From assembly GCA_025062045.1 (NCBI GenBank), contig JANXAF010000002.1, positions 132,765 to 196,764 on the forward strand: DNA of 64,000 bases, read 5' to 3'. Under the pieces are notes generated by a model. That model made no database searches and was not told where the DNA came from. It saw nothing but the letters and a program-made list of their open reading frames with translations. Within the stretch, counting starts at the first letter, position 1. Every line of letters starts with the position of its first letter. Both the position numbers and the translations under genes were made by a program. Source of the DNA: Thermodesulfobacteriota bacterium (GTDB taxonomy: Bacteria; Desulfobacterota; Syntrophorhabdia; Syntrophorhabdales; JANXAF01). Shown here piece by piece: positions 3,166-60,625 of this stretch.

Positions 3166-4293
3166 ATGTGGGAAGATATGTCCCTTGAAGATGTTGTCAG
3201 GTGTGCCAGTGATCCTTATCCTTCCATCAGGGAATGGAAGAGAAAGTCCGGCAAAAAGGTCATAGGAACAACCTTTGCTGATGTGCCCGAAGAGGTGATA
3301 CAGGCTTTTGACATCTTGCCTGTCACCCTTATGGGCACAACCAAACCGCTAAAGAGGGCCCAAGCCCTCCTTCCTGATAACGCCTGCTCCCTTGCAAGAA
3401 GTAACCTTGAGCTTGTATTAAGCTACGAGACCGATCTCTTTGACGGGTTCGTACTGCCCCAAGTTTGCGATACGACACAACACATGTCTGACATATGGAG
3501 GATAAACGTAAAAGCTGATTACTTTGAAAGCTTTCTTGCCCCCCGCCAGGTTGACAGACCGAGCGCAAAGTACTGGGTGAGAAAGGAAATAGATAGACTT
3601 ATCGACTCTTTAAAAAACTTTTCCGGAAAAGATCTGGGGCCCACGGATCTTAAAAGATCCGTGGAGATTCATAACGAGAATAAAAGGCTTCTTAAGGAGA
3701 TATACTCGATAAAGAACGAGAATCCTTCGTCTGTTTCCTCGAAGGAATTCTTTTCAATGGTCAAGATCTCTCAGCAGGTGGATAAAGGTGAGTTTAATAG
3801 ATCCTTGAAAAAGATCAAGGATAGCCTAAAACCTGGCAAAAAGGAAGGTTACATTGATGTCATCCTTTGTGGAATCACCTGTGAGCCCATAGAGATATAC
3901 GGACTATTCGACGAGTTAAAGTTGAACGTAATTGCAGACAATCTGCTTATTGGAAGTCGCTACTTAGAAGGGGAAGTGGAAGACGGGGAAGATCTGATTG
4001 ATAAGCTAACTGAAAGGCACTTCAAAAGGGGCTTCTTCTCACCTATTCACGGAAACGTATTTGCAGAATTCGAACAGATAAAGAAACTATACAAAGAGAA
4101 GAACGCAAAGGCTGTAATTTACGTACACATTGAATTCTGCGAGTCCCAGGAGTACGATCTTCCAGACCTTAAAAGGATGATGAAGCAAGAAGGGATACCG
4201 ATGCATGTAATAGAGACTGAATATCAGACAACGTCTCTGTCCCATATAAGGACGAGACTTCAAGCGTTTATCGAATCAATAAAGGGGATCTAG
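3166..4293 (+). CDS. 2-hydroxyacyl-CoA dehydratase/benzoyl-CoA reductase family, BcrC/BadD-like subunit
   Basis: A 375-residue member of the HgdB/HgdC and BcrB/BcrC fold. These catalytic subunits bind a [4Fe-4S] cluster and either reduce aromatic acyl-CoA or dehydrate 2-hydroxyacyl-CoA, in both cases after ATP-driven electron injection. Visible marks are the N-terminal WKRKSGKKVIG and DILPVTLMGTT segments, Cys74 (DNACSLARS), Cys101 (PQVCDTT), GITCEPIEIYGLFDEL, and a C-terminal HIEFCESQEYDLPDLK. Length and gene order (this subunit first) fit BcrC/BadD rather than HgdC. The next gene begins directly after the stop codon. No activator or ATPase subunit (BcrA/BcrD, HgdC) is nearby, so the reaction cannot be fixed. 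Benzoyl-CoA reduction, 2-hydroxyacyl dehydration or another reduction are all possible. Confidence 0.8.
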   Translation: MWEDMSLEDVVRCASDPYPSIREWKRKSGKKVIGTTFADVPEEVIQAFDILPVTLMGTTKPLKRAQALLPDNACSLARSNLELVLSYETDLFDGFVLPQVCDTTQHMSDIWRINVKADYFESFLAPRQVDRPSAKYWVRKEIDRLIDSLKNFSGKDLGPTDLKRSVEIHNENKRLLKEIYSIKNENPSSVSSKEFFSMVKISQQVDKGEFNRSLKKIKDSLKPGKKEGYIDVILCGITCEPIEIYGLFDELKLNVIADNLLIGSRYLEGEVEDGEDLIDKLTERHFKRGFFSPIHGNVFAEFEQIKKLYKEKNAKAVIYVHIEFCESQEYDLPDLKRMMKQEGIPMHVIETEYQTTSLSHIRTRLQAFIESIKGI

Positions 4294-5538
4294 ATGAGCG
4301 AAAAGCAAAAAAAAGAAATGACCAAATCCCAAATCTTATCAAAAGAGATAACGGAAGAGTACCTTGAAGAGGCATTTCGAGCCAAAAAGGAGGGTAGAAT
4401 CGTCTGCTACACGACAGCCATCTCGCCGGTTGAGATCCTCGTTGCCCATGACATAATTCCAATCTACCCTGAAAATCACTCGGTTGCTAATCTAGTGGCA
4501 AAAAAGGGTGCAGAGATGTGTTCATTTGTCGAAGGGTTGGGCTACTCGAGTCACCTTTGCGCATACGCGAGGTGTGACCTTGCCTACAGGGCAACGGGCC
4601 GTACGGTAACAAGGGGGATTCCTGAACCGGACATGTTCCTTGCGTGTAACGCCCAGTGCTTTACACTAACTAAATGGTTCGAGGTATTGTCCAGAAAAGG
4701 AGGCGGACTACCCCTTTTTGTTTTTGATACACCACAGTACATACGGGATAGAAGGGCTAGGGAAGAGATTGTTAAGTACTGTGTGATGCAGCTGAAAGAA
4801 CTCATAGCTTTGATTGAGGATCTAACTAAGAGAAAGTTCGACTACGACAGACTTAGGGAGGTTCTTAAGTATTCGAGGGAGGCAAGTCTACTTTACAGAA
4901 GATTCCTGGATATGGCCCAATACAAACCTTCGCCTATTAGCATCTTCGATGCTCTCATAGGAATGGCAATAACCGTGTACAGAAGGGGTACACCGCAGTG
5001 CGTGGAATACTATAGAACACTTTGCGACGAGATCCAGGAAAAAGTGGAAAAGGGTATAGGTGTCCTTCCAAAAGAAAAGGAAAGGTTCAGGCTTTACTGG
5101 GAGAATCTTCCTATATGGTATAAGTTCAGTGATCATGCGAAACTTTTGAGCTCTTATGGAGCTGTGATTCTAACCTCCCTTTACGTTCATGCCTGGAGCT
5201 TTGAATTTGACCTCGACAAGGACCCACTTTACACTCTCTCTGAGAATTACGTTTCAAGGTTTTCAAACGTGACACTCGAAGAGAGGGTCGATATGGCTTT
5301 AGAGCTTTTTGAAAGGTATTCTTTGAACGGGATGCTCATGTTCATGAATAGGAGCTGTAAGGCCGTCTCCTTCGCTGTACCAACCTTAAAAGAGATCCTC
5401 ACAAAAAGAACGGGTATACCTGCACTTGTCTTTGAAAGCGATATGGGGGACCAAAGGTTTTACTCGGAAACCCAAATAAGAACAAGGATTGAGGCGTACT
5501 TCGAAACTTTGGAAAAGTTAAACCTGGCAAGGGGATGA
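4294..5538 (+). CDS. 2-hydroxyacyl-CoA dehydratase/benzoyl-CoA reductase family, BcrB/BadE-like subunit
   Basis: A 414-residue partner of the preceding protein, resembling BcrB/BadE. The start ATG is the base after the upstream TAG, so translation is coupled. Likely cluster ligands lie in SHLCAYARC (Cys89, Cys93) and ACNAQC (Cys118, Cys122). The C-terminal block with NRSCKAVSF, GIPALVFESDMGDQRF and a TRIEAYFE end is the usual family signature. In Thauera and Rhodopseudomonas the next two genes encode ATP-hydrolysing activator subunits. Here the next gene is the convergent kdsB, whose 3' end overlaps this gene by 21 bases. The activator must be encoded elsewhere or be shared with another dehydratase (inference). 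Confidence 0.8.
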   Translation: MSEKQKKEMTKSQILSKEITEEYLEEAFRAKKEGRIVCYTTAISPVEILVAHDIIPIYPENHSVANLVAKKGAEMCSFVEGLGYSSHLCAYARCDLAYRATGRTVTRGIPEPDMFLACNAQCFTLTKWFEVLSRKGGGLPLFVFDTPQYIRDRRAREEIVKYCVMQLKELIALIEDLTKRKFDYDRLREVLKYSREASLLYRRFLDMAQYKPSPISIFDALIGMAITVYRRGTPQCVEYYRTLCDEIQEKVEKGIGVLPKEKERFRLYWENLPIWYKFSDHAKLLSSYGAVILTSLYVHAWSFEFDLDKDPLYTLSENYVSRFSNVTLEERVDMALELFERYSLNGMLMFMNRSCKAVSFAVPTLKEILTKRTGIPALVFESDMGDQRFYSETQIRTRIEAYFETLEKLNLARG

Positions 5539-53375: not shown

Positions 53376-53852
53376 CTATGTCAAATTGGTCATCTTTGTT
53401 GCCTCTTCGACAGCCTCTATTATTTTTTTATAGCCAGTACACCTACAAAGATTCGATGATATTGTCTCCACTATTTGGACTCTGTCTGGTTTAGGGTTCC
53501 TCTCAAGAAGGGCTTTGGCCACCATTATCATCCCAGACGTACAGAATCCACACTGGACTGCCCCTTTTTCAATGAAGGCAGACTGTAGAGGGTGCAACTT
53601 ACCCCCCTTCTTTAAGCCTTCAACAGTTTCAACACTCGAACCATTTAATTCAACTGTGAGGACAAGGCAAGACCTAACGGGTTTACCATCGACGATAACA
53701 GTACATGCACCACATGTGCCAAGACCACAGGCCTCTTTTGCACCGGTAAGTGAAAGCCTTTCACGAAGTGTCTCTAAAAGGGTCTCGTATGGTTTTACTT
53801 CTATGGCAGTCTCTTCCCCATTTAAAATAAGTGATACTTTGTGGAATTGCAT
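53376..53852 (-). CDS. hcrC: Molybdenum hydroxylase [2Fe-2S] subunit (4-hydroxybenzoyl-CoA reductase gamma type)
   Basis: A 158-residue iron-sulphur subunit of the xanthine oxidase family. The plant-ferredoxin-like cluster is bound by Cys42, Cys47, Cys50 and Cys62, and the second cluster by Cys101, Cys104, Cys136 and Cys138. It passes electrons between the FAD subunit and the molybdenum cofactor. It lies 1 base after the FAD subunit gene. The specific name rests on the FAD subunit's extra cluster; the general family is certain. Confidence 0.82.
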   Translation of the reverse strand: MQFHKVSLILNGEETAIEVKPYETLLETLRERLSLTGAKEACGLGTCGACTVIVDGKPVRSCLVLTVELNGSSVETVEGLKKGGKLHPLQSAFIEKGAVQCGFCTSGMIMVAKALLERNPKPDRVQIVETISSNLCRCTGYKKIIEAVEEATKMTNLT

Positions 53853-53853
53853 A

Positions 53854-54795
53854 TCAGTCCCCCGTTTTTAAACTATTTAGTAGCCTTTTTGCGATAACCC
53901 TTCCCATCTTCTTTATGTACAGAGCAGAAACGACTGTGTTATTTACAGGTTTTAAATCCCTATAGACATTTTCGAGAATCTCAGGGGCTTCAATAAGGTT
54001 CGAAGTGGATATTTCGTAGACGAGGGGACGAGGCCCAACTGCTCCTATGACTAGCCTTTTTCTTTCAAAATCTCCTGATATGGCACCGTTTATCAACGGA
54101 TAATCAATCGATCCCCTAATTCTTATCTTTTCAAACATGCCTTCTTTTTTCTCGTTTTTTATAAGTATCTCTTTAAGGATCTCTCCATCTTTAAGGTTGA
54201 AAGGAACTCTAGAATCTCCGGAGAATAACTCGGAAATAGGAAAGGTTCTTTTGCCATTTTTTCCGACACTCACAAGATAAGCGTCTAAAGAGAGTAAAGC
54301 GGGCGCAAGGTCGCTTGCGTAATTTGCGTAACAGACATTCCTTCCGCCTGTTGCATGGCAGATGTCCGCGCCCATCTTGTAACAAAAACCTTTTGCCCTC
54401 CTCCACTCAAGGGATTTGTTATAGAAAAGACACCTCGTATCCTGAAGGATATTCCCCCCAACCGTTCCTCTCATCTGGAGGGTTTCACATGATGTAAGGG
54501 TACAGGCCAAGTACAAAGGGGGATAATTTTTGAGGATAACGTCATTCTCCTTCAAATCGAATATGGTAGTATTTGCTCCTATTGATATGAATCCATCAGC
54601 AATCTTTATCTGAGAAAGCTCTTTGATTCCTTTTAAATCGATAACTACTTTGGGGGTTTTGAGTCTTAGCTTTAAGCGAGGGATGAGATCTGTGCCTCCT
54701 GCGAGGAATACCGCTTCACCTCCGTACATTTCATATATCTCTAGGGCTTCGTCCAACTCCCTTGGCCTTCTATAGTCGAACTTCGGCAGAATCAT
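53854..54795 (-). CDS. hcrB: Molybdenum hydroxylase FAD subunit with extra [4Fe-4S] motif (4-hydroxybenzoyl-CoA reductase beta type)
   Basis: A 313-residue FAD-binding subunit. The FAD motifs are LAGGTDLIP (31-39) and the TVGGNI segment (111-116). The special feature is four cysteines at 122, 138, 146 and 155 (C-x15-C-x7-C-x8-C). They lie in a loop followed by YANYASDLAPAL. This spacing, and as I recall even the numbering, is that of the [4Fe-4S] cluster unique to the beta subunit of Thauera 4-hydroxybenzoyl-CoA reductase. It is absent from xanthine dehydrogenase and CO dehydrogenase. That enzyme reductively removes the phenolic hydroxyl to give benzoyl-CoA. The gene overlaps the large subunit gene by 4 bases. 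Confidence 0.85.
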   Translation of the reverse strand: MILPKFDYRRPRELDEALEIYEMYGGEAVFLAGGTDLIPRLKLRLKTPKVVIDLKGIKELSQIKIADGFISIGANTTIFDLKENDVILKNYPPLYLACTLTSCETLQMRGTVGGNILQDTRCLFYNKSLEWRRAKGFCYKMGADICHATGGRNVCYANYASDLAPALLSLDAYLVSVGKNGKRTFPISELFSGDSRVPFNLKDGEILKEILIKNEKKEGMFEKIRIRGSIDYPLINGAISGDFERKRLVIGAVGPRPLVYEISTSNLIEAPEILENVYRDLKPVNNTVVSALYIKKMGRVIAKRLLNSLKTGD

Positions 54796-57065
54796 TCTGC
54801 CACCCCTTCCTCTATGATCTCTAGAACCTTGTCTGGGGTCAGGGGAAGCTCAATAAAAAGTTTTCCAGTGGCGTTATAAAAAGCGCTAGCTACGGCACTA
54901 TGGGCACTCATTCTTATTGTTAATCCCCCTTCCTTTGCCCCAAAAGGGCCTTCAGGGTCTATGGTAGTGACTATTAAACTTTCTATTTCCGGCATATCCT
55001 TCGCAGTGGGAATCTTGTATTCAAGAAGATCAGGGTTTAGAAGGAAACCATGGTGCCACATATTACCTTCCATTATAGCGGCAACACCCGCTTGCATTAC
55101 TGCTCCTTCGAGCTGACCTTCCACAGCCATTGGGTTTATGGCTCTGCCACAGTCATGGACCGCTATAAACTTAGGGATCGAGATTTTTCCGGTTTCCCTG
55201 TCAATTACTATCTCGGCGACGGAGGTTCCGTAACTGAAGGTCCCGGCCATTTGTCCGTAAGGCCTCGCTACCCATTCCCTTTTGAGGTCTATGTTTGGAA
55301 AGTAAGATCCCTTTCCCATAATAGGCTTTCCCTTAAGAAAAGCCTCTCTCACGATCCAAGAAATCGGTATCTTATTTTCGGGATTATTCTTCGAGTAAAC
55401 CATTCTATCTCGTAGAACGATGTTGCTACCGTCTCCACCGAGCTTCTCTTTGGCGATTTCGATTATCTGGCTTCTAGCATCCTCGCAGGCTCTCTTTACC
55501 GCGTTCACACCCACAAAAGCTGCAGCCTGTGAATAGGCACCAGGATCCAAATTTGTAATTTCTGTATCCGCATTCACTATGTTTATGTCCTCCATGGGTA
55601 TGCCTAGAATCTCTGAGGCCACTTGGATGACCATAGATTCGTTTCCTTGACCATTGTCAACAATGGCTGTAATAATTGTGGCCTGACCGTCATCGTTAAA
55701 TTTTACAAAGCAGGTGGAGCCTGACCTAAAACCCATGGGGAATCCACACATGATAGCTACGCAGCCCATCCCGATGCCTTTATATTTTTCGCCTCTTTTC
55801 CATTTCATTCTGAAATTCGATCTCCTTTCAGCTTCCTCAATAGTCTCTTTTAGACCGCAGCTTATGATTTTCGATCCCGTCGCTGTGACATCGCCAGTTG
55901 AAAGCCCATTTTTAAGCCTCATCTCAACTGGATCGATCCCGAGCTCCTTTGCAATAAGGTCCAACTGGGCTTCACATCCGGCAAGAAAAGCCCTTCCGTG
56001 ACAACCGTACATACCCCTTATCCCTTTGTTTGTGTAAACCCTGTAACCGTTGTATCTTACATTTTGCATTCTGTAACATTCTTCATAAACATAAAATGGA
56101 ACTGAGGCAGCAATTGGACCTGTGCTACTATATGCGCCGCCATCGTATATAACTTCGTAATCCCTTGCGATTATCGTGCCGTCCTTTTTTACGCCCGTTT
56201 TGATTTTTGCAATAATATCGTGGACCTGTCTTGAAGCTATAGCATTTTCCTCCCTTGAAAGTACAAGCTTTACCGGCCTTTCTGTCTTGATGGAGAGTAG
56301 CGAGGCTATAAAGTCCGCGGGAGCAACCTCTGACCTTCCACCGAATGCACCACCTATAAAGACATGCCTGACCCTTATTCTATTTAGGGGAATCTTTAGG
56401 AGGTTTGAGAGTGCCTTAGCCCTCACGTGGGGTCCTGCATTTGGCATCCAAAGATCGAGATATCCATTCTTGTAGTATGCAACGCAAGCATAAGGTTCTA
56501 GCATTGCGTAAGATTCACCTTTTGCCCTAAACTTATCCTCCCTCACGTAATACGCTTCCTTAAAAGCCTTATCCACATCGCCAACTTCTATGTGTACATG
56601 GATGTTTATATTTCTTGGGTAGTTTTCATGGATGAGCGGAGCCCCCTCCTTTATAGCTTCTTCCGGATCGAAAACCGGTTCTAAAGGTTCATATTCGACC
56701 TTTATTTGATCTATCGCTTCGAGCGCTGTCTCCTCGTCTATTGCAGCAACTGCCGCCACGTCTTCACCTACGTACCTAACTTTATCGACAGGAAGCATAG
56801 CATGGTCCTGCGTGTACTTAAAGACGCCCCATTTAACTCCGTATCCGTCCTTTCCTGTAACAACTGCTTTTACCCCAACTACTTTCTCCGCCCTTGATGT
56901 GTCGATATGGAGTATCTTGGCATGCGGATAAGGACTCCTCAAAACCTTTGCAATTAGCATATTTGGGAGTTTTATATCAGCGGTGTATTCAGCCGACCCT
57001 GTTACTTTGTGAATGGAATCGGTCCTGGGTACCCTTCTACCCACGACGTAAAATTCTTGTTCCAT
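54792..57065 (-). CDS. hcrA: Molybdenum hydroxylase large subunit (4-hydroxybenzoyl-CoA reductase alpha type)
   Basis: A 757-residue molybdopterin-binding subunit of the xanthine oxidase family. It has the N-terminal VTGSAEYTADIKLPNML, the GGAFGGRSEV molybdopterin loop, GIRGMYGCHGRAFLAGCEAQLD, and the C-terminal GAKEGGL with the catalytic Glu region. Length matches HcrA (about 770). The GGTGGGGG site precedes the ATG. A promoter-like pair and a 12-bp palindrome lie upstream, after dctM. CoA-ester reduction of a hydroxyaromatic acid is inferred from the FAD subunit; hydroxylation of an N-heterocycle cannot be excluded. Confidence 0.82.
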   Translation of the reverse strand: MEQEFYVVGRRVPRTDSIHKVTGSAEYTADIKLPNMLIAKVLRSPYPHAKILHIDTSRAEKVVGVKAVVTGKDGYGVKWGVFKYTQDHAMLPVDKVRYVGEDVAAVAAIDEETALEAIDQIKVEYEPLEPVFDPEEAIKEGAPLIHENYPRNINIHVHIEVGDVDKAFKEAYYVREDKFRAKGESYAMLEPYACVAYYKNGYLDLWMPNAGPHVRAKALSNLLKIPLNRIRVRHVFIGGAFGGRSEVAPADFIASLLSIKTERPVKLVLSREENAIASRQVHDIIAKIKTGVKKDGTIIARDYEVIYDGGAYSSTGPIAASVPFYVYEECYRMQNVRYNGYRVYTNKGIRGMYGCHGRAFLAGCEAQLDLIAKELGIDPVEMRLKNGLSTGDVTATGSKIISCGLKETIEEAERRSNFRMKWKRGEKYKGIGMGCVAIMCGFPMGFRSGSTCFVKFNDDGQATIITAIVDNGQGNESMVIQVASEILGIPMEDINIVNADTEITNLDPGAYSQAAAFVGVNAVKRACEDARSQIIEIAKEKLGGDGSNIVLRDRMVYSKNNPENKIPISWIVREAFLKGKPIMGKGSYFPNIDLKREWVARPYGQMAGTFSYGTSVAEIVIDRETGKISIPKFIAVHDCGRAINPMAVEGQLEGAVMQAGVAAIMEGNMWHHGFLLNPDLLEYKIPTAKDMPEIESLIVTTIDPEGPFGAKEGGLTIRMSAHSAVASAFYNATGKLFIELPLTPDKVLEIIEEGVAE

Positions 57066-57163: not shown

Positions 57164-58471
57164 CTATTTCATGAGGCCTGGAAGAAAGGTTGCTATTTCT
57201 GGGAATATGGTAAGGAGCAAGGCGAGAACAATTTTTGCTATCCAGAAAGGTACCGCACCCCGAAAGATTGTGGAAAGCGGTACATCTTTTGCGACACCTG
57301 CCGTAACGTAAACGCAGATACCAACAGGAGGGGTGAGTGTGCCGATACTTACCATAACTATAAGCACTATACCGAACCAGACAGGATCAAATCCAAGTTT
57401 TATTATGAGCGGGTGCATGATTGGAACTGTAAGTGCTATTATGGCAAGTCCATCAATAAAGCATCCGAGAAGGATATAAAAAACGTATATGCCAAGCATA
57501 ATAACGTAAGGAGAAACAGGCAATCCCAAAACAAATTCTGAAAGCTTTGTGGGAATGTTGGTAACAGTGATAAAACGGCCAAACATTGTAGCCCCAATCA
57601 GTATTAGAAAGACCATCCCCGTTACTGTGGCGGCCTCATTTAAGGCGTTCCTGAAACTCTCCTTTGTCATCTTTTTTGTCACCAAAGAATAGACAAGCGA
57701 GGCAAATGCTCCGACAGCAGCTGCCTCAGTGGGTGTGAAAACCCCTGTGTATATTCCTCCCATAGACAGAATGAAGATACCAAGTACCGGGTAGATCTTT
57801 GAGGAAACTTTTATTTTTTCAACAAAGCTTGCAGGTCTTAGTTGGGTCGAAGGAGCCACACTAGGATCGATCCTTATCCATATTGCAATCACGAACGTGT
57901 AAAGAATTATTAGAACAATCCCAGGAAGTATTCCGGCTATGAGAAGCTTTCCTATTGACTCGTATGTCAATAGTCCGTAAAGAACAAGAGCAGTACTTGG
58001 CGGTATAAGAATGTCGATTCCACCGCCCGCAGCTATACAACCGGTACTGAAAGAGTCTTTATACCCATATCTTCTCATTTCAGGGAGTGCAACTGCCGTG
58101 AACGTGGCCACCGTTGCAATTATCGAACCGGATAGGGCACCAAATACACCGCAAGCCCCAACCGTTGCCATAGCGAGTCCCCCTCTAAATTTTCCGATCC
58201 AAACGTTCAGGGCCTCGTATATTTCTCTTCCCAGTCCAGCATGAAGAAGGAATAAACCCATAAGTACGAAAAGGGGTATTACACTTAGGGCATGAACACT
58301 CGCACTTGCAAAGACATCCATACCAAGCTTAGCAAGAGTAGCCTTAACGTTCGTAAGATAAGCAAATCCGCAAAGTCCTACGAGTAACATTGAGAGCCCA
58401 ATGGGAAGCCTTGTAGCCATAATGAGGAGGAACCCGATTATACCGAGAATTCCGACGAGTTCGGGGCTCAC
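57164..58471 (-). CDS. dctM: TRAP transporter large permease DctM
   Basis: A 435-residue integral membrane subunit with about twelve helices. Typical DctM segments include GIIGFLLIMATRLPIGLSML, GACGVFGALSGSIIATVATF, the PPSTALVLYGLLT block and FIDGLAIIALTVPIMHPL. It carries the substrate across the inner membrane, driven by a Na+ or H+ gradient. It overlaps dctQ by 4 bases and is followed, 98 bases on, by the hydroxylase operon on the same strand. Confidence 0.95.
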   Translation of the reverse strand: MSPELVGILGIIGFLLIMATRLPIGLSMLLVGLCGFAYLTNVKATLAKLGMDVFASASVHALSVIPLFVLMGLFLLHAGLGREIYEALNVWIGKFRGGLAMATVGACGVFGALSGSIIATVATFTAVALPEMRRYGYKDSFSTGCIAAGGGIDILIPPSTALVLYGLLTYESIGKLLIAGILPGIVLIILYTFVIAIWIRIDPSVAPSTQLRPASFVEKIKVSSKIYPVLGIFILSMGGIYTGVFTPTEAAAVGAFASLVYSLVTKKMTKESFRNALNEAATVTGMVFLILIGATMFGRFITVTNIPTKLSEFVLGLPVSPYVIMLGIYVFYILLGCFIDGLAIIALTVPIMHPLIIKLGFDPVWFGIVLIVMVSIGTLTPPVGICVYVTAGVAKDVPLSTIFRGAVPFWIAKIVLALLLTIFPEIATFLPGLMK

Positions 58472-58947
58472 CTGTCTACCCTCTTGAAAGACTCGACAAG
58501 ATCTAGAAAGAGGGCTAAAAAGAATATGAACGTACCAAAAGCTGCAAGGATAAAAAAAGGATAGATGGGAATGTGTAAGACTCCCGTAACCGTTTTACCG
58601 AGATAGAGCCTTTTTGCATGCATAAGAAGCTGCCAAGTCATGATGAGAGTCAATCCAATGCTTATTAGGTAAACTATGCGGTCAAGGCAGATTCTTGCCT
58701 TCAAAGGGAGTTTTGTATAGGCAGCTTCAATCGCTATGTGGCCTTTTTTTAACTGGGTATAACCGATTGAGAAAAAGACGAAAGTTGCAAGCATCAACTC
58801 CGTTACTTCATAGGAGCCGGTTACGGGAGCCTGGAGGAACTTGCGGCCAAAGACATCGATTATGGTCAGAAACATCATGGCCATAAGAATTACAAGACCC
58901 ACATCCTTAGTCCTCTGAACGAGGGCGACAATTATCCTTCTTCCCAC
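58468..58947 (-). CDS. dctQ: TRAP transporter small permease DctQ
   Basis: A 159-residue membrane protein with four helices, the usual DctQ topology, and the FGRKFLQAPVTGSYEVTELMLATFVFFSIG core. It stabilises DctM in the permease complex. It shares one base with the dctP stop and overlaps dctM by 4 bases. Confidence 0.92.
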   Translation of the reverse strand: MGRRIIVALVQRTKDVGLVILMAMMFLTIIDVFGRKFLQAPVTGSYEVTELMLATFVFFSIGYTQLKKGHIAIEAAYTKLPLKARICLDRIVYLISIGLTLIMTWQLLMHAKRLYLGKTVTGVLHIPIYPFFILAAFGTFIFFLALFLDLVESFKRVDR

Positions 58948-59960
58948 TACTTCTCGAACTCCCTGCTAAGTTTCATCATTTCGTCAAAGAAACGTTTTCC
59001 GGGTAGTCCTTTACCCTCCATCTTTGCTATCCAGGCGTTATAAACGGGAGCCACGGCACTACGCCACTTTTCGAATTCCTCCCGTGTCAACTCGTGGATT
59101 TGAACATTTGCTTTTCTGTGGATTTCTATAGATTTCTTCGCTATATCGTCGTATATTGCGGCCCCTTTAAAAGCTATCTTTCTTCCTGTTGTATCCTCGA
59201 GCACTTTTCTGTCTCTAGGAGAAAGTTTTTCGTAAGCCTGTTTATTCATGGCAACTATCATTACAGGCACATACGCATTAAGCACTGTTGCATATGAAGT
59301 CACTTCGTAGAGGCGAAAATGCATGCTGGCTGACCACGGTGTGAAAACCCCATCTATGACCCCTCTCTTTAGCATCTCGTACTGTTCACCGACAGGAGCC
59401 GTGATAGGAGACGCACCAAGAGCTGATGCAAGTTCTTTAGTAGAAGGACCATGAACCCTAATCTTTAAACCTTTAAGGTCTAAGATACTCCTTATCGGCT
59501 TTTTGGTGAAAAGTTGTCCGGGATCACCAGCCCAAATCCAAAGAATGTGAGTATCCGCATACTCTTTTCTAAATTCCAATATTCTATCCCAGATTCCATA
59601 TATCGTCTTTGTCACATGCTGAGCCGAATTAAATATGAAGGGTAATTCAAAACCTTCCGTTAAAGGGAATTTACCTGCGGTATAAGAGGGAAGCGTATAA
59701 ATTATTTCCGCAACTCCTGTCACAACGGAGTCGTAAAGGTCAGCGGGCTTAGCAAGAGTGGCATTAGGATATATAGTTATCTTTACCCTACCTTCCGTTA
59801 GCCTTTCGACTTCTTTGGCCCAGGGCTCAATGAGCTCAGCGTGCATCGCATGAGAAGTTGGAACAAAATGGGCAAGTTTAAGTTCAACTCCCGAGCTAGT
59901 GTTGATAAAGAGTAAAAAGCACAATAAAAGAACAAAAAGCACGGCAAACGATCTTTTCAT
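58947..59960 (-). CDS. dctP: TRAP transporter periplasmic solute-binding protein DctP
   Basis: A 337-residue secreted binding protein with a signal peptide (about residues 1-24). The DctP fold is clear, with ELKLAHFVPTSHAMH, the conserved carboxylate-binding Arg in DLKGLKIRVHGPST, and GVFTPWSASMHFRLYEVT. These proteins bind organic acids, including aromatic carboxylates in several soil and anaerobic bacteria. Here it is paired with a hydroxybenzoyl-CoA-reductase-like enzyme, so a hydroxylated aromatic acid is a reasonable guess. An AGGGGG site precedes the ATG. Confidence 0.93.
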   Translation of the reverse strand: MKRSFAVLFVLLLCFLLFINTSSGVELKLAHFVPTSHAMHAELIEPWAKEVERLTEGRVKITIYPNATLAKPADLYDSVVTGVAEIIYTLPSYTAGKFPLTEGFELPFIFNSAQHVTKTIYGIWDRILEFRKEYADTHILWIWAGDPGQLFTKKPIRSILDLKGLKIRVHGPSTKELASALGASPITAPVGEQYEMLKRGVIDGVFTPWSASMHFRLYEVTSYATVLNAYVPVMIVAMNKQAYEKLSPRDRKVLEDTTGRKIAFKGAAIYDDIAKKSIEIHRKANVQIHELTREEFEKWRSAVAPVYNAWIAKMEGKGLPGKRFFDEMMKLSREFEK

Positions 59961-60226: not shown

Positions 60227-60625
60227 TTATTTACATGATTGACAGATTCCGTAAAGATCTATTTGAACTCTTTCTACTTGAAACCCTTCTGGAAGTGTAC
60301 TTGGAAGACTAAAGGATATTTCCGTAGTTATGTCAAAAACCTTTCCGCATTTTGTGCATACAGCGTGGGAGTGGGGCGTCGTTGAGGGATCGAAGCGCTT
60401 TCTTTGAGGGTCTACGGTAAGTTCATGTAAGAGCCCTCGTTTTTTGAGCATCTCCAATGTGTTATAGACTGTAGCAAACGAAATGGTTGGAAACTTCATT
60501 GAGACGGCCCTAAAGACATCGAGGGCGGAAGGATGTTCTTTGTTGTCTTTAAGGTATTCGAGTATTGCCATCCTCTGCGGAGTCATCTTAAAATCATAGG
60601 GCTTCTTTTTGTCTTTTGGCACCAC
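60227..60625 (-). CDS. perR: Peroxide-responsive regulator PerR (Fur family)
   Basis: A 132-residue Fur-family repressor. The winged helix is followed by a dimerisation domain with structural zinc cysteines Cys90, Cys93, Cys128 and Cys131. The regulatory metal ligands match Bacillus PerR with an offset of six: His31, Asp79, His85, His87 and Asp98. The Asp at the last place is typical of PerR rather than Fur. Iron-catalysed oxidation of His31 or His85 would release DNA. The GTG at 60625 coincides with the predicted transcription start, so the mRNA is probably leaderless; a second GTG follows directly. Confidence 0.88.

Follow-up and report, generated by a model that had tools for sequence, protein, structure and literature searches.

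Among members of the xanthine oxidase family, those that work reductively form a short, growing list, namely, 4-hydroxybenzoyl-coenzyme A (CoA) reductase (HCR), urolithin dehydroxylase, and a C-S cleaving enzyme (PMC12771579). For Desulfatiglans anilini, in which HCR-like genes are induced by aniline and 4-aminobenzoate, a reductive deamination of 4-aminobenzoyl-CoA was proposed (PMC7500099). Cleavage of aromatic C-N bonds by an enzyme of this family has been put forward before, with no certain gene. An oxygen-sensitive 2-aminobenzoyl-CoA reductase (deaminating) that requires a low-potential reductant was reportedly measured by Lochmeyer, Koch and Fuchs in 1992; to our knowledge, no gene has been assigned to this activity and no sequence is known for it, and our literature searches returned no gene assigned to it either. 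The present study concerns a three-gene locus at positions 53376-57065 of a 64,000-nucleotide stretch of DNA (the window) from a Thermodesulfobacteriota bacterium, which is best explained as encoding a heterotrimeric (or dimer of heterotrimers) HCR-type molybdenum-flavin-iron-sulfur enzyme. Its family is distinct from HCR, and the family, its active-site loop, and its link to indoleacetate degradation appear to be new, the enzyme class itself being known. We tentatively propose that in Desulfobacterota and some other anaerobes this enzyme serves as a low-potential reductase of the indoleacetate pathway, most likely converting 2-aminobenzoyl-CoA to benzoyl-CoA.

Subunits and the cysteine insert of the FAD subunit

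The three genes lie on the minus strand, overlap or abut each other, and follow the order large, flavin adenine dinucleotide (FAD), and iron-sulfur (FeS) subunit that the first-pass annotation had given. Protein domains were called by Pfam, all above gathering scores, and all three subunits carry the domains expected of the three-subunit Mo-FAD-FeS enzymes of the xanthine oxidase family. The features, with the best match in the Protein Data Bank (PDB) where relevant, are as follows:

54792-57065, minus strand: large (molybdenum) subunit, 757 amino acids, with Ald_Xan_dh_C, MoCoBD_1, and MoCoBD_2 (Pfam); best PDB match HcrA (1rm6_A, E=1e-124)
55986-56018, minus strand: active-site loop R350-G-M-Y-G-C355-H356-G-R-A-F360 of the large subunit (large-subunit alignment)
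54930-54932, minus strand: Glu712 of the GAKE motif of the large subunit, invariant in the large-subunit alignment, the position at which xanthine oxidase family enzymes have their catalytic glutamate
53854-54795, minus strand: FAD subunit, 313 amino acids, FAD_binding_5 with an HcrB-type insert (Pfam, HcrB alignment, Foldseek)
54316-54444, minus strand: insert of the FAD subunit, residues 118-160, predicted to bind [4Fe-4S] (HcrB alignment, homologue conservation)
54430-54432, minus strand: Cys122 codon of the FAD subunit, invariant in 40 FAD subunits
54382-54384, minus strand: Cys138 codon, likewise invariant
54358-54360, minus strand: Cys146 codon, likewise invariant
54331-54333, minus strand: Cys155 codon, likewise invariant
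53376-53852, minus strand: FeS subunit, 158 amino acids, with two [2Fe-2S] domains, Fer2 and Fer2_2 (Pfam)

The cysteines at 122, 138, 146, and 155 of the FAD subunit (C-x15-C-x7-C-x8-C), on which the first-pass annotation was built, are present in the translation, and all four fall on the extra-cluster cysteines of HcrB in a phmmer alignment with 1rm6_B (E=4.6e-45). Chance can be set aside as an explanation, because all four belong to the just 17 columns that stay invariant when 40 partner FAD subunits, with 32-62% identity to the query, are aligned. For the subunit, AlphaFold gives a model with a mean predicted local distance difference test score (pLDDT) of 90, and the best solved structure for this model in Foldseek is again 1rm6_B (TM 0.93, E=6e-32), followed by the next best at E ~1e-22. 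Judging from the conservation of the cysteines and the HcrB alignment, a third, [4Fe-4S] cluster is almost certainly present in the FAD subunit; iron binding and the type of cluster are very probable by homology with HcrB.

What such a cluster implies for the reaction is a separate matter. The corresponding insert of PaoB, which is the FAD subunit of an aldehyde oxidase, also contains four cysteines (three in common columns, one shifted) and binds [4Fe-4S] in structure 5g5g. Conversely, six large subunits of the phylum (loci L127-L132) score above the HCR cut-off, and in all five cases in which the adjacent FAD subunit is readable (L127, L128, L130, L131, and L132) the [4Fe-4S] insert is missing. 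The HCR reaction therefore neither requires the insert nor follows from its presence, and the insert is not diagnostic for HCR. Hence the earlier claim that the cluster implies low-potential reduction of a hydroxyaromatic CoA ester does not hold, the neighbourhood in relatives also being of the indoleacetate type, and HCR annotations of insert-bearing proteins are to be treated with care. An aldehyde oxidoreductase of the PaoABC kind that has a [4Fe-4S] insert would account for the four cysteines and for PaoB being the second-best PDB match of the FAD subunit, but this is very improbable, given that just three of the four cysteine columns are common to both, that the large subunit is far closer to HcrA than to PaoC (E=3e-48), and that aldehyde-related neighbours are absent.

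Two variations on the insert were encountered elsewhere. One genome of the phylum (G132) has two further insert-bearing xanthine-oxidase enzymes on the HcrA side (loci L181 and L183), with longer spacing in the cysteine insert. On contig C7 of the window's own genome, a 796-amino-acid FAD subunit of a xanthine-oxidase enzyme (L126:8487-10874, minus strand) contains Fer4_20 and Pyr_redox_2, i.e., a GltD-like NAD(P)H module, inside FAD_binding_5, about where the [4Fe-4S] insert sits in HcrB. The module has the look of an internal entry point for electrons from NAD(P)H; the accompanying large subunit is on a very long branch in the tree.

Position of the large subunit relative to HCR

The first-pass annotation had read the locus as an enzyme of the HCR type, and its strict form would be a true HCR that dehydroxylates 4-hydroxybenzoyl-CoA. 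This reading draws on HcrA and HcrB as the best PDB matches of the large and FAD subunits, on the insert common to HcrB and the FAD subunit, and on a BamB benzoyl-CoA reductase encoded in the same genome. Measured against the HCR equivalog models TIGR03193/03194/03195, however, all three subunits score far below the cut-offs: 629 bits for the large subunit (cut-off 994.6), 212 for the FAD subunit (404.6), and 165 for the FeS subunit (257.8). A hydroxylase of the pathway discussed below, which lacks the insert (L045), reaches 654 bits on the same large-subunit model and so outscores the window protein. A best match to HcrA is therefore uninformative by itself, and identification as HCR on that basis was dropped.

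Maximum-likelihood trees of the large subunits were built with 60 rows and, after removal of the longest branches, with 41 rows; the root is not known, and the statements made here concern splits. In the 60-row tree, the window family is a clade with 100/100 support and a long stem (0.55), and it is sister to, not nested in, the clade of HcrA and of those proteins that exceed the HCR cut-off. In the 60-row tree, the group that unites the window family with HcrA comprises 46 rows and has 99/97 support; in the 41-row tree, its support is 86/94. Outside this group in the larger tree are CoxL, Qor, 6-hydroxypseudooxynicotine dehydrogenase, and the hydroxylases of the pathway; the large subunit thus sides with HcrA, away from CO dehydrogenase and the hydroxylases. 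With the third cluster almost certainly present, neither of the outcomes that would have refuted the first-pass annotation was observed. What stands of the HCR-type reading is the side of the tree and the shared insert, and what falls is HCR proper, in view of the sister clade, the three low scores, and a different active-site loop. A true HCR is improbable, as the neighbours in relatives belong to an indoleacetate-type pathway and a better HCR candidate exists in the same genome. The latter, on contig C5, belongs to a second TRAP-linked cluster (L125:3609-13781, minus strand; TRAP, tripartite ATP-independent periplasmic) consisting of TRAP PQM genes, the xanthine-oxidase enzyme, an acyl-CoA dehydrogenase, and an AMP-forming CoA ligase; this enzyme has no insert, has an RGHG loop, and scores 740 bits on the HCR model.

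The active-site loop sets the groups apart as well. HcrA has R358-G-H360-G, and the pathway hydroxylases have RGYGNPQ, with Tyr at the position of His360. Among 80 homologues, the window family reads RGM-x-(R/G)-x-HGRAF with an invariant His. The clade of the window protein has Gly in place of the loop Arg, followed by Cys355; YGC-HGR is found in 26 of the 80 and YRC in 10, and most others have Thr, Val, Ile, or Met at the Cys position. The shared His fits a reductase-type site, a correlation in which the role of the residue is read from the alignment. The structure model of the large subunit (pLDDT 74) has HcrA as its best fold match and is too weak around the active site for a reading of the pocket. 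Taken as a whole, the enzyme is likely to be on the reductase side and to work in the reductive direction. A CO dehydrogenase of the CoxL form I type was also considered, because Cys355 (GMYGCHGR) aligns near the Cu-binding Cys of CoxL; it was rejected, since the tree separates CoxL, the SFR of the YxCSFR loop is absent, and more than half of the 80 family members have no Cys there.

Indoleacetate-type neighbourhoods and the proposed reaction

The neighbourhood was sampled at 80 named loci, which belong to Thermodesulfobacteriota, Chloroflexota, Methylomirabilota, and one archaeon. The neighbours that recur are a PaaK-type CoA ligase, HyuA/HyuB, a methylmalonyl-CoA-mutase-like pair (MCM-S and MCM-L), a second, insert-free xanthine-oxidase enzyme, a VOC epimerase, a family III CoA transferase, acyl-CoA dehydrogenases, GntR, TRAP genes, molybdenum-cofactor proteins, and a saccharopine-dehydrogenase-like protein with a class III aminotransferase. 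The clearest arrangement is a co-directional operon in one genome (G224), which runs CoA transferase, GntR, MeaB, IaaF-type acyl-CoA dehydrogenase, MCM-S, MCM-L, HyuA, HyuB, PaaK, then the hydroxylase (FAD-FeS-large), and lastly the large, FAD, and FeS genes of the window family. Its acyl-CoA dehydrogenase has GGG in place of the YEG motif, a signature of IaaF that has been reported only from iaa (indoleacetate) operons; such operons, with an electron transfer flavoprotein (ETF), have been predicted in strict anaerobes (PMC8360864).

The genome of the window organism, 1.76 Mb in 29 contigs, was examined by targeted searches and in stretches. Contig C4 has a single run of CoA transferase, GntR, MeaB, MCM-S, MCM-L, HyuA, HyuB, PaaK, and hydroxylase genes, and contig C1 has a GGG dehydrogenase adjoining EtfB and EtfA. 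The iaa gene set (CoA ligase, hydroxylase, HyuAB, CoA transferase, mutase, and GGG dehydrogenase) is thus found as a single operon in G224 and as a dispersed set in the window's genome. Schuhle et al. are said to have predicted iaa operons in anaerobes in 2016 and may already mention an extra Mo enzyme.

Across 297 genomes of the phylum, the window family occurs in 45, an iaa-type mutase (called at ≥59% identity, with a clear gap to the next at ≤49%) in 58, and both in 40. The mutase is therefore present in 40/45 carriers vs 18/252 non-carriers (Fisher p = 6e-30, not corrected for phylogeny). That the enzyme is part of an indoleacetate-type pathway is well supported and highly likely. An oxidative role within that pathway, e.g., as indoleacetyl-CoA 2-hydroxylase with a [4Fe-4S] cluster that only passes electrons to ferredoxin, would agree with the need of the pathway for a Mo hydroxylase, with the place of the window-family genes directly behind the pathway genes in G224, and with PaoABC, in which a comparable insert is compatible with oxidation. 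This role is nonetheless unlikely. The same operons contain the insert-free second enzyme with the RGYGNPQ loop, and this hydroxylase occurs in 54 of the 58 genomes with the mutase, whereas the window family is present in 39 and absent from 15 of those 54; the tree, moreover, places the family on the HcrA side. Therefore, the other enzyme would carry out the obligatory oxidation, which argues that the window enzyme performs a later, replaceable step that some organisms do otherwise.

A low-potential reductase acting on 2-aminobenzoyl-CoA would fit such a step. The published scheme leads from indoleacetate via (2-aminobenzyl)malonyl-CoA to 2-aminocinnamoyl-CoA (PMC8360864). An aromatic acid would be imported by the TRAP transporter encoded just upstream of the enzyme; the PaaK-type CoA ligase, the Mo hydroxylase making a 2-oxo-lactam, the ATP-dependent lactamase HyuAB, and the CoA transferase would then act, followed by the B12-dependent mutase, together with MeaB, and a decarboxylating dehydrogenase that has an ETF of its own. 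Beta-oxidation of 2-aminocinnamoyl-CoA would yield 2-aminobenzoyl-CoA. Low-potential electrons (ferredoxin) would enter the window enzyme at the [4Fe-4S] cluster and reach molybdenum by way of FAD and the two [2Fe-2S] clusters; at the molybdenum, 2-aminobenzoyl-CoA + 2 e- + 2 H+ would give benzoyl-CoA + NH3. This reductive deamination would be HCR chemistry with ammonia, not water, as the leaving group, and the benzoyl-CoA, which a strict anaerobe with a BamB-type ring reductase needs, would pass to that reductase. Pathway logic and context make 2-aminobenzoyl-CoA a tentative choice of substrate. It is possible, if somewhat less so, that the family represents an undescribed xanthine-oxidase type that deaminates this aromatic amine, supplying the missing gene and linking indoleacetate degradation to the benzoyl-CoA pathway.

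BamB homologues are encoded on contigs C1 and C2 (scoring 1011 and 777 bits against 4z3w, the BamB structure from Geobacter), and a whole route from indoleacetate to ring reduction of benzoyl-CoA is plausible in the window organism. These class II paralogues (L166:3023-4984 and L167:4515-6476) each stand beside ferredoxin and HdrD-like genes. The window itself encodes two HGD-D proteins of the 2-hydroxyacyl-CoA dehydratase/class I benzoyl-CoA reductase type (3166-5538, plus strand); their scores are under all curated cut-offs, and the pair was rejected as a class I reductase, BamB being the clear case instead.

Several points weigh against the deamination of 2-aminobenzoyl-CoA in an indoleacetate pathway. 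HCR acts on a para substituent and 2-aminobenzoyl-CoA is ortho-substituted; the loop Arg of HcrA and most of the window family is Gly in the window clade; and 2-aminobenzoyl-CoA could be a direct substrate for reduction by one of the two BamB paralogues, in which case deamination would be unnecessary. In the window's genome, the enzyme and the pathway genes are encoded on separate contigs, and the enzyme has only a TRAP transporter beside it. Indoleacetate as the operon substrate is itself suggested by homology. The 15 genomes with mutase and hydroxylase that lack the window family, the four carriers with neither mutase nor hydroxylase, and a co-occurrence p-value that leaves kinship aside point the same way; at least three of these 15 (G081, G258, and G035) have other insert-bearing enzymes on the HcrA side (L156/L182, L184, and L147). 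Lastly, the scheme leaves unexplained why 34 of the 80 loci have, close to the enzyme, a gene for a saccharopine-dehydrogenase-like protein, a class III aminotransferase, or both.

The last point would be met if the enzyme were the reductase of a related pathway for another N-heterocycle, in which these two proteins handle the released amine. An epimerase-like VOC protein often accompanies them, and VOC, saccharopine-dehydrogenase-like, and aminotransferase genes are found together on contig C9 of the window's genome. Yet a close pair is lacking in four genomes (G024, G097, G245, and G184) that contain the enzyme along with the pathway genes, the saccharopine dehydrogenase relatives of G097 being only 28-30% identical, and the GGG dehydrogenase with the lactamase and mutase set fits the published indoleacetate scheme (PMC8360864). 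This alternative is unlikely as well, though slightly less so than the oxidative role, and because of the four carriers a pathway centred on the pair was dropped as the core. As a module, VOC, saccharopine-dehydrogenase-like protein, and GSA-type class III aminotransferase recur beside the [4Fe-4S] enzyme, e.g., at L046:3815-6667, L107:15886-18300, and L124:7239-10114.

The genes directly upstream of the enzyme in the window are:

57164-58471, minus strand: DctM, TRAP transporter large permease (TIGR00786 above cut-off; PF06808)
58468-58947, minus strand: DctQ, TRAP transporter small permease (PF04290)
58947-59960, minus strand: DctP, TRAP solute-binding protein (NF037995 above cut-off)

The dctM gene is separated from the large-subunit gene by 98 bp, on the same strand. 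DctP is a probable importer of the pathway substrate; TRAP genes are near the enzyme homologue in 11 of the 80 loci. A gene for a Fur/PerR-family regulator (60227-60625, minus strand) is located just upstream of dctP on the same strand.

Comparison with known systems

If the proposed function is true, it would complete the anaerobic degradation of auxin and tryptophan-derived indoleacetate in sulfate reducers and syntrophs, and the window family, with its operon, conserved cluster, and active-site loop, is a concrete gene candidate for an activity measured decades ago. Four described systems can be set beside it. HcrCAB of Thauera aromatica (1rm6/1sb3) shares with the window enzyme its three subunits, domains, four cysteine columns, side of the tree, and loop His. 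It differs in the loop, which is RGHGTVD in HcrA and xHGRAF in the window family, with Gly and an adjoining Cys replacing the loop Arg in the window clade, and the window family stands apart by its separate 100/100 clade, its scores under the HCR cut-offs, and its indoleacetate-type operon. The putative aminobenzoyl-CoA reductase of D. anilini, a sulfate reducer, resembles the window enzyme as an HCR-like Mo enzyme proposed to deaminate an aminobenzoyl-CoA, but its substrate is para-amino and its genes belong to an aniline cluster; the likeness is drawn from the published description (PMC7500099). Urolithin C dehydroxylase (Ucdh) of Enterocloster bolteae is likewise a member of the xanthine oxidase family that acts reductively on an aromatic ring and has HCR as its closest characterised relative, but it takes a non-CoA substrate, uses NADH as donor, and is described with FAD and two [2Fe-2S] clusters only (PMC12771579). 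PaoABC, the aldehyde oxidase of E. coli (5g5g), has four cysteines in the same insert of the FAD subunit, but one cysteine column is shifted, the enzyme is oxidative and periplasmic, and its large subunit is distant.

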